Assembly (NCBI RefSeq): GCF_003991135.1
Contig: NZ_CP016379.1
Coordinates: 806,001 to 870,000, forward strand
Length of the DNA: 64,000 bases
Reading direction: 5' to 3'
DNA from: Anoxybacter fermentans
GTDB lineage: Bacteria; Bacillota; Halanaerobiia; DY22613
Shown here: in pieces, positions 3,580-35,565 of the stretch
Layout: each line of letters begins with the position of its first letter
How positions within the stretch are numbered: the stretch's first letter is position 1
Position numbers and translations under genes: made by a program
Notes under the pieces: model-generated
What the model was told of the DNA's origin: nothing
Databases searched by the model: none
Seen by the model: only the letters and a program-made list of their open reading frames with translations

Positions 3580-3640
3580 GATAAATTAGAGGGGCTGTCC
3601 CAAAAGTCCCTTTATAACCCCCAAAAGTAAATATTAAAAG

Positions 3641-3680
3641 AAAGGTGTTGTCAGAAATTTTTATAAAGACAACACCTTTT
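3641..3680 (+). terminator. Hairpin at the left end of the IS, upstream of its transposase
   Basis: AAAGGTGTTGTC and GACAACACCTTT form a 12-bp perfect stem followed by more T. Insertion sequences often carry such a barrier against transcription entering from outside; it would also end the ftsH-like transcript. Confidence 0.7.
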
Positions 3681-3699
3681 TTTATGGTAAAATATAAAT

Positions 3700-5323
3700 A
3701 TGAAGAGGAAAAACCATAATAAAAAGACATTTATTGAATATAATATGAATCAGACAATGTTGCCTTTGAGTTTTGATGTGTTTATTCCTGAGAATCATTT
3801 AGTAAGGGTGGTAAATTCAGCTATAGAAAGGATGAATATTGAACCCCTGCTTGAAAAATATAAAGGTGGGGGTAGAAGCAGCTACCATCCGAAAATGATG
3901 CTTAAGGTTATAGTATATGCCTATACTCAGAGAATATATTCATCAAGACGAATTGCCAAGGCACTTCGGGAAAATATTTATTTTATGTGGCTTAGTGGTA
4001 ACAATAAACCTGATTTTCGGACGATAAACCGATTCAGATCAGAGATCATGAAAGATGTTATTGATGAGGTATTTGCATCAGTATTGGAACTTCTTATAGA
4101 AGAAGGATATGTAAAGTTAGAGAATTACTTTTTAGATGGTACAAAAATAGAAGCTAATGCAAACAAATATAGCTTTGTCTGGGGAAAAGCGACAAAGAAG
4201 TACAAAGCAAGGCTTAGGGCAAAAATTAATGAACTTTTAAAAGAGATTGAGAAAACCAACGAAGAAGTACAAAGCAAGGCTTAGGGCAAAAATTAATGAA
4301 CTTTTAAAAGAGATTGAGAAAACCAACGAAGAAGAGAATAGATTGTATGGGGATAATGACCTGGAGGAGATGGGTGAAGGAAAAGAAATAGATTCAAAGA
4401 AACTCGAAGAAAAAATTAAGGAACTTGAAGAACGTCTAGAAAAGAACTCCAAAAACAAGAAGTTAAAGAAAACAATTAAAGAGCTCAAGACTAAATGTCT
4501 TCCCAGAATGAAAAAATATGAGCAACAGGAAGAGATTTTAAATGGACGAAACAGTTATTCTAAAACAGATACTGATGCAACTTTTATGAGAATGAAAGAA
4601 GACCACATGAAAAATGGGCAATTGAAGCCCGCATATAATGTTCAGATAGGTACAGAGAATCAGTTTGTAGTTGGTTATAGTATTCATCAAAGGCCGGCAG
4701 ATTCAAGATGCTTAATACCTCATTTAGAAAAAGTAAAAGAAGTTACAGGTAAGATTCCGGAGAATGTGATAGCTGATTCAGGTTATGGTAGTGAGGAAAA
4801 TTATGATTACTTAGAGAAAGCTAATACTAATATTTATGTTAAGTATAATACTTTTCATAAAGAACAAAAGAAGAAGTTTAAAAATGATATATTTAAAGTA
4901 GAAAACTGGCCGTATGATAAAGAAAACGACGAGTTTATTTGTCCTGTTCAAAGAAGACTCATTTACTGTAAGACAAAAGAAATTAAGACTGAAAATGGAT
5001 ATACTAAACAAATTAGATATTACAAATGCGAAAATTGTGATGAGTGTGAGTTAAAAGAAAATTGTACCAAGGCCAAAGGTGATCGAGTAATAAGAATAAA
5101 TTTTAAATTACGTGAATATAAGCAAAAGGTAAAGGAAAACCTTTGTTCCGATAAAGGTATGAAACTCCGTTCTCAAAGAGCAATAGAAGCGGAATCTGTC
5201 TTTGGAAGGATCAAAGGTAATTGGTCATTCCGGAGATTTCTGCTTCGTGGCCTTGAGAAAGTAAAAATTGAATGGGGTTTACTGTGTATAGCCCATAACC
5301 TGGCTAAACTGGCAACAGTATAG
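3700..5323 (+). pseudogene. IS1182-family transposase, frameshifted by a 67-bp duplication
   Basis: The N-terminal part (from 3700) has the DUF772-type domain of IS1182 transposases, with FIPENHLVRVVNSAIERM and FRTINRFRSE. The C-terminal part has the DDE core, including DSGYGSEENYDYLEKA and a C-terminal cysteine cluster CENCDECELKENC. A 67-bp tandem duplication at 4197-4330 shifts the frame, so the first frame ends at 4284 and the rest continues in the next frame from 4247. Removal of one duplicate copy would restore one uninterrupted gene. The sequence is otherwise intact, which suggests recent inactivation. Confidence 0.88.
4197..4330 (+). repeat. 67-bp tandem duplication inside the transposase gene
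   Basis: The segment starting GAAGTACAAAGCAAGGC occurs at 4197 and again at 4264, exactly 67 bases apart, and is identical over the full unit. Since 67 is not a multiple of three, it breaks the reading frame. Confidence 0.95.
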
Positions 5324-5446
5324 AATGTCAGGTATGGGTTTTTATTTTCTTAACAGAAGAATTTTCAATGAATTTGAAATGAACAATGAAAAAAGGGGCC
5401 ATGCCCAAAAGTAATTAATTACTTTTGGGACAGCCCCTTTATTTAT

Positions 5447-33686: not shown

Positions 33687-34552
33687 GAGAATTTAATTTT
33701 ATTCAACCAAAGAGTGTTGATGAAGTATTAGAGCTTTTGAATATTTATGGATCAAAGGCAAAGGTTGTGGCAGGTGGGACCGATTTGATTGTTGAATTGA
33801 GAAAAGATGAGGGCCCCAAAGATCTGGAGGTTGTGATCAATATTGCCCATTTGGATGATTTGAATTATATAAAAGATGATGGCGAGTGGGTACGGATTGG
33901 TGCTGCTACACCCCATGCTAAGGTAGTTAAATCTGGGCTGATTCAAAAGGAAATTCCTGCTCTGGCTTATGCGGCCAATAGTGTAGGTTCTCCCCAGATC
34001 CGCAACCGGGGTACCATTGGTGGAAATATCATGAATGCTTCGCCAGCAGCAGATACGGTACCGGTGCTGGTGGCTCTGGATGCTGTTTTAACTTTCAGAT
34101 CTGTATCAGGTAAACGCCGGGTACCGATTACCGATATCTACGTCAAACCTTATAAAACCAATGTGCCGCCTGAGGAGTTATTGGTTGAAGTATCTTTCAA
34201 AAAATTACCTGCCACTGCATCTAGCGCTTTTATTAAATTGGGGCGAAGGAATGCTTTAGCCATTTCCAGAATGAATGTGGCAGTGATTCTGGATCGTGAT
34301 GCTGAGGGAGTTATCAAAGATATCAGAATCGCTCCTGGTTCAACTACACCTGTACCATCCAGAATAAAATGTGCTGAAGAAGTACTTTTGGGTAAGAAGC
34401 CAACTGATGAGCTGATTGAGTTGGCAGGATCAAAGGTGTCAGAAGAGATGATTAGAATAAGCGGTTACAGGTGGTCTACTGAGTATAAAAAGCCGGTTAT
34501 TGAAGCTTTAACAAGAAGAGGAATCCGTAAAGCATTGGGGGGGCAGCAATGA
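33683..34552 (+). CDS. Molybdenum hydroxylase, FAD-binding subunit
   Basis: A 289-residue subunit with the two FAD motifs of the CoxM family, VVAGGTDLIVEL and IRNRGTIGGNIMNASPAAD, and a C-terminal CO-dehydrogenase flavoprotein domain. It passes electrons from the iron-sulfur subunit to an acceptor. It overlaps both neighbours by four bases. Confidence 0.94.
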   Translation: MREFNFIQPKSVDEVLELLNIYGSKAKVVAGGTDLIVELRKDEGPKDLEVVINIAHLDDLNYIKDDGEWVRIGAATPHAKVVKSGLIQKEIPALAYAANSVGSPQIRNRGTIGGNIMNASPAADTVPVLVALDAVLTFRSVSGKRRVPITDIYVKPYKTNVPPEELLVEVSFKKLPATASSAFIKLGRRNALAISRMNVAVILDRDAEGVIKDIRIAPGSTTPVPSRIKCAEEVLLGKKPTDELIELAGSKVSEEMIRISGYRWSTEYKKPVIEALTRRGIRKALGGQQ

Positions 34553-35022
34553 AGAAGATTAAACTTAAATTTACAGTTAATAATAAGCCATATGAGTTGG
34601 AAGTTAATCCTAATGCACGTCTTCTGGATGTTTTGAGAGATGAATTGAATCTGACCGGAACAAAAGAAGGTTGCGGTGTAGGTGAGTGTGGAGCCTGTAC
34701 TGTGATCATGAATGGTCAGGCTGTCAACTCCTGTTTGGTCTTAGCTGGTCAGGCCCAGGGGGCTAAAATTATTACTATTGAAGGAGTACAGGGTGAGAAT
34801 GGTGAACTCCATCCCATCCAACAGGCTTTTATCGATAAAGGTGCTGTTCAGTGTGGATATTGTACTCCCGGGATGATCTTAAGTGCTAAGGCACTGTTAG
34901 ATCAAAATCCCAATCCAACTGTAGAAGAAATTAAAGAGGGGATTTCGGGTAATCTCTGCCGCTGTACTGGCTATCAGCAGATTATTGAAGCTGTACAGGA
35001 AGCGGCAAAACGGATGGAATGA
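34549..35022 (+). CDS. Molybdenum hydroxylase, [2Fe-2S] subunit
   Basis: A 157-residue protein with a plant-type ferredoxin cluster (GCGVGECGACTVIMNG, distal Cys in NSCLV) and a second helical cluster (QCGYCTPGM and LCRCTGYQQI). All eight cysteines are present. Its stop codon TGA is made by the last T of a target duplication and the first GA of repeat copy E, so the 3' end of the gene has been rebuilt by the insertion. Confidence 0.95.
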   Translation: MKKIKLKFTVNNKPYELEVNPNARLLDVLRDELNLTGTKEGCGVGECGACTVIMNGQAVNSCLVLAGQAQGAKIITIEGVQGENGELHPIQQAFIDKGAVQCGYCTPGMILSAKALLDQNPNPTVEEIKEGISGNLCRCTGYQQIIEAVQEAAKRME

Positions 35023-35239
35023 TTAAACTATAAAAAGCTAATTTTGAGCGCGATTGAAATTTTACGTTAAAAACCGTCTTAGTGAGGTTGAAAAGAATGG
35101 TCTCATCTGTGGATGTGATGAGCTAATCATGGGTCATAAGGACCCATTGATTAGTGTGCCTTATTTTAACTGAAATTGAACTTTAGATGGTTCGAAAAAT
35201 TTTTTATGAAGTGAAAAATTAGCTTTTTGCAGTAAGATT
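35021..35239 (+). repeat. Repeat element 1, copy E
   Basis: A 219-bp copy flanked by ATGGAAT (35014-35020) and ATGAAAT (35240-35246), a 7-bp duplication with one difference. Its first two bases are part of the stop codon of the [2Fe-2S] subunit gene. Both GGA hairpins are present. Confidence 0.92.
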
Positions 35240-35257: not shown

Positions 35258-35565
35258 AAAATGGCATGTTTTATTAAAAACTATGCCATTTTGAGCTTGT
35301 TGACAAACCTTTCTTTTTTAGAGACTTGCCCGTGCACTGCCAGAAAAACTAAATATAATTTCTGAAGTGTATAAGTCAAGGCTTAAAGCCAGGAGGGTGG
35401 AAGCCTTGACTTTTAAGGACGCGTAGCCAGGATGGCGGAGCGTCTGGTAGTAGAAGAAATTATATTTAGTTTTTTGTTCCTCTGTGGGAGCAAGTTGTGT
35501 GTACCTCCTCTTTTTCAACAACCTGAAATTGCATGGTTTATTAAGGACCATGCCGTTTTTTTCTG
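35258..35565. repeat. Element 2: nested inverted-repeat element with two AGGAN hairpins
   Basis: The outer ends (AAAAAATGGCATG...CTATGCC and GCATGG...CCATGCCGTTTTTT) are inverted copies of each other and each is itself a hairpin. Inside are paired TTGTTGA / TCAACAA (35298, 35514), CTTGCCC / GGGAGCAAG (35334, 35487) and a perfect 20-bp stem at 35344-35363 and 35455-35474. The centre holds two hairpins: stem AAGTCAAGGCTT / AAGCCTTGACTT with GCCAGGAGGG in the loop, and GACGC-GTA-GCC-AGGAT-GGC-GGA-GCGTC. No credible ORF is present. The plan matches element 1 although the sequence does not. Confidence 0.75.

Follow-up and report, generated by a model that had tools for sequence, protein, structure and literature searches.

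What is the 0.3-kb structure at positions 35258 to 35565 of the window, by which we mean the whole 64,000-nucleotide stretch of the Anoxybacter fermentans genome analysed here? An earlier note had described it as a single unit, element 2, composed of outer hairpins, nested arms and two central hairpins with AGGAG and AGGAT loops, and had proposed that it shares a function or a transposition mechanism with a second repeat of similar plan, element 1. All of these parts are present, and the fold lies far beyond that of shuffled sequences (z of -8.2 as DNA and -6.7 as RNA against 100 shuffles, 0/100 of which equaled it). The consensus of element 1, which we took to be the family of the neighboring copy E, likewise has two central hairpins carrying AGGA motifs. 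A check for a known structured RNA class came back empty, as an Rfam scan of the region gave no match at the gathering score. Element 2 lacks a transposase gene and contains no open reading frame (ORF) of 100 or more amino acids.

A search of the organism's own genome, a single 3.56-Mb contig, returned 61 matching stretches that represent approximately 40 separate full or partial copies of element 2, which rules out a single-copy accident. The search gave 81 candidates, of which 40 were scored and read as stretches, and weaker copies may be missed. When the copies were aligned together with their flanks, homology was found only between GAGCTTGTTGAC and CAACAGCCTG, corresponding to 35293 to 35525 in the window. 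The multiple copies, common ends and unrelated flanks bear out the suggestion that this is a transposable element. Among the copies with enough flank, 17 of 18 are intergenic, and of the 14 with both neighbors, 13 are situated downstream of one gene or more. Deletion forms also occur: several copies measure approximately 195 bp and have their two central hairpins fused; in a deletion subfamily comprising L027, L029 to L032 and L036, the fusion is at the AGGA motifs. Copy L040, at 59 bp, keeps little beyond the ends. A search of 150 relatives for element 2 yielded just two 27-bp matches, and a search for its exact core pattern in the contigs of other genomes found none.

The 0.3-kb structure is two things, a mobile element and the duplicated terminator hairpins of its host, arranged as follows.

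35259 to 35292, no strand assigned: left copy of the duplicated target, a 34-bp terminator-type hairpin, 28/34 identical to 35526 to 35559 and abutting element 2 exactly.
35293 to 35525, forward strand: element 2 proper, 233 bp, GAGCTTGTTGAC...TTCAACAACCTG, bounded by the evidence of ~40 genomic copies and of where the duplicated flanks meet the element.
35293 to 35303, forward strand: left terminal inverted repeat GAGCTTGTTGA, matching the IS1182-family ends CAGGTTGTTGACAAA (L071) and GAGATTGCTGACAAACC (G079).
35344 to 35363, forward strand: left internal arm AAAAACTAAATATAATTTCT, 20 bp, 100% complementary to 35455 to 35474.
35370 to 35415, forward strand: central hairpin 1 of the fold, with apical AGGAG at 35391 to 35395.
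35417 to 35445, forward strand: central hairpin 2 of the fold, with apical AGGAT at 35429 to 35433.
35455 to 35474, forward strand: right internal arm, complementary to 35344 to 35363.
35515 to 35525, forward strand: right terminal inverted repeat TCAACAACCTG, matching the IS1182-family end TTTGTCAACAGCCTG.
35526 to 35559, no strand assigned: right copy of the duplicated target hairpin, folding end to end (-12.4 kcal/mol) and followed by TTTC, with the original downstream T-run kept.

The outer hairpins abut element 2 on both sides and had been drawn as its own ends. The hairpins and arms of that nested plan are real, but copies cease to be homologous beyond 35293 and 35525, which places the outer hairpins outside the repeat. 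For 32 copies, we compared the left and right sequences, anchored at the junctions, with mismatched flank pairs. The mean direct-repeat score was 21.75 within a copy versus 3.50 for mismatched pairs (p = 1.4e-13). The flank repeat exceeded the 99th percentile of the null in 19 of the 32 copies, and in 13 of 32 none did. Hairpin sequence varied from site to site, while left and right agreed within a site. It is therefore next to impossible that the outer hairpins belong to element 2; those in the window represent a terminator hairpin of the host, present in two copies that have diverged.

The duplications were 7 to 34 bp long and hairpin-sized in 14 of the 32 copies. Longer ones fold nearly end to end as hairpins (for example, at L006, L008, L010, L013, L016, L022, L023 and L028) and are perfect, at 25/25, in L010 and L016; the right hairpin copy is often followed by T's, as in a terminator. 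Some copies (L002, L021, L029 and L030) appear to have gone into a hairpin or next to one. Three copies (L010, with its perfect 25-bp duplication, L025 and L036) sit in the central hairpin of element 1, which suggests that the target is the stem-loop itself and not terminator function.

Patterns made from the ends of element 2 matched 39 and 49 places, compared with 2 and 0 for reversed controls, and led to a 1,530-bp insertion sequence (IS) at L071:648-2177 with ends CAGGTTGTTGACAAA and TTTGTCAACAGCCTG. Its broken frames match the IS1182 transposase model NF033551 (E = 1.7e-14 and 9.8e-19), and its ends agree with the terminal repeats of element 2 at approximately 14/15 positions on the left (best variant) and 14/16 on the right. 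This IS is decayed, and the search for an intact IS with element-2-type ends in this genome yielded only this broken partner and remnants at L078 to L080; a protein scan for the partner's N terminus gave nothing. Relatives of the L071 IS with open transposase frames exist in other genera, and those of G079 have ends, GAGATTGCTGACAAACC...CAGCCTC, close to those of element 2. Duplicated hairpins flank 8/8 IS copies examined in three other genera.

G079, IS copies L154, L161 and L168: hairpin duplications of 22, 22 and 17 bp.
G033, IS copies L126, L184 and L214: hairpin duplications of 34, ~20 and 19 bp.
G194, IS copies L127 and L152: hairpin duplications of 18 to 19 bp.

Hairpin duplication is not family-wide, because another IS1182 group in G079 (L173, L177) has no flank repeat of at least 12 bp. 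ISfinder gives very variable direct repeats for the IS1182 family. Taken from its ends and flanks, element 2 is very probably a non-autonomous 233-bp IS1182-type MITE that targets and duplicates stem-loops and would depend for its movement on an IS1182-family DDE transposase acting in trans.

Two other candidates for the partner were rejected. An abundant, intact 1,785-bp IS1182 element (L086 to L102, plus partial copies) has the ends GGGGCTGTCCCAAAAGT; L108 has only a weak match to the IS1182 profile, and its ends do not match. A copy of the 1,785-bp element, with ends GGGGCTGTCCCAAAAGT, lies in the window at ~3589 to 5440 (L103, L106), where a 67-bp tandem duplication (4184 to 4317) appears to break the transposase; 17 open copies are found elsewhere in the genome. 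Solo palindromes of ~37 bp, AGGCTGTTGACnTTCTAACTTTGTCAACAGCCTG, at L072, L074, L075, L076, L081 and L084 resemble single ends of the partner IS, and on either side of the one at L081 lies a hairpin of the form GATAAAC...GTTTATC, the two being similar.

Within the IS1182 family, IS1272 replaces target hairpins, many of which are terminators (PMC5678879, PMC4923244). Element 2 resembles IS1272/TnSha1 in its assignment to this family by NCBIfam, in its use of stem-loop targets, often terminators, without sequence specificity, and in its insertion just behind genes. IS1272 removes the hairpin or takes its place, and no duplication results. Element 2 differs, as 14 of its 32 copies have a hairpin to their left and right, and stem-loop replacement with loss of the target was therefore rejected. 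Duplication instead corresponds to pathway b in Fig. 13 of PMC5678879 (2017), a model whereby the stem-loop would be duplicated through joining at its 5' feet. For palindromic targets in the IS1182 family, the same paper refers to Siguier et al. 2015, and the hairpin duplications of element 2 reveal targets of this kind. Other non-autonomous IS1182-family derivatives are those of ISMac2 in Methanosarcina acetivorans (160 and 169 bp), which, unlike element 2, are listed with 4-bp or no duplications, hairpin duplication not being stated (PMC3852290). The pneumococcal BOX, RUP and SPRITE repeats are also small, intergenic and mutually nested, with stable hairpins, but the review PMC10969869 does not link them to hairpin-sized target duplications. 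We found no paper on hairpin-duplicating MITEs in a literature search whose coverage of subscription journals was thin.

As the sequences show, element 2 sits between two copies of a pre-existing stem-loop, usually a rho-independent terminator. The duplication runs across the hairpin from one foot to the other, so that its length (15 to 34 bp) follows that of the hairpin; shorter duplications (7 to 13 bp) may reflect strand joining at the loop or later decay. Insertion just behind a gene would be nearly harmless with a hairpin kept on each side, and this would be why ~40 copies are tolerated. We put at about even the chance that the DDE transposase joins at both 5' feet of a cruciform, with duplication length set by the DNA hairpin of the target and not by the transposome, each insertion copying a terminator at almost no cost. 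Alternatively, a long target duplication could be set by transposome geometry and merely often fall in hairpins, as in IS1202-like elements, whose target duplications are 24 to 29 bp. Several duplications of 20 to 28 bp are in keeping with this, but lengths vary between 15 and 34 bp, most duplications fold over their full extent, foot to foot, and the cognate ends belong to IS1182 elements, making a geometric origin highly unlikely. Hairpin replacement by IS1272 is documented, and duplication has so far been a drawn pathway in the literature found; here, it is seen directly in dozens of independent insertions of a single MITE family and in eight IS copies from three other genera. Does a DDE transposase read DNA shape (a cruciform) instead of sequence, and does hairpin length set duplication length? 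These questions are testable, and the pattern suggests a route by which small elements build up downstream of genes, with a terminator preserved on either side.

If element 2 were instead a structured RNA with a regulatory role, either in the manner of a riboswitch or as a decoy with CAGGA(U/G)G loops for CsrA or Shine-Dalgarno-like loops, that role would account for its spread and retention. The genome has one csrA gene, CsrB-type repeats have the sequence CAGGA(U)G, the fold is stable, and AGGA loops occur in two unrelated families. Substitutions among the copies are mostly C>T and G>A (247/366), a bias like that of decaying copies in an AT-rich genome. After correction for this bias, the arms changed less than expected (13 changes versus 31), as did the first stem (17 versus 36), but the AGGA loops of element 2 had 20 changes versus 15.5 expected, and one element 1 loop had 36 versus 14.2, more than twice the expectation. 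Compensatory base pairs showed no excess, with pair counts matching shuffles, and copies occur in both orientations. With no Rfam match either, a regulatory RNA is very unlikely, and a CsrB-like CsrA-binding RNA, with conserved GGA loops and maintained stems, was rejected on the unconserved loops and lack of covariation. The shared RNA function proposed earlier for elements 1 and 2 is unsupported, since in both families the AGGA loops are no more conserved than chance and the pairing carries no compensatory signal. In the IS1182-type MITE, the nested arms and the AGGA hairpins at the center are carried as internal cargo whose function is not evident; conservation of the arms may come from a DNA-level need in transposition or from repair between arms. 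The apical AGGA(G/T) loops, common to two unrelated families and unconserved among copies, are a likeness that remains unexplained.

Element 1 is a MITE distinct from element 2. It is a palindrome of ~218 bp with ends GATTAAACTGC/GCAGTAAAATC, present at L041 to L070, at 35022 to 35239 in the window and at many other sites; 40 copies were scored, from 687 first-look candidate places in the 3.56-Mb genome. Its duplications are ~7 bp and AT-rich: at a length of 7, at least 6 positions match in 9 of 30 copies versus 2.4% by chance. No transposase partner of element 1 was found. The idea of a common transposition mechanism fails on the different ends and on the duplications, which are hairpin-sized (15 to 34 bp) for element 2 versus ~7 bp and AT-rich for element 1. 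Insertion between the two families is reciprocal, with element 2 in element 1 at L010, L025 and L036 and element 1 inside element 2 twice (L028, L033), flanked by AAATAT. The copy of element 1 next to element 2 in the window is as follows.

35022 to 35239, forward strand: copy E of element 1, between the stop codon of the upstream gene and its terminator, with the duplication ATGGAATG/ATGAAATG.

The insertion point of copy E is the stop codon of the ORF upstream (34549 to 35022), and the duplication ATGGAATG of this copy (35014 to 35022) ends inside the TGA.
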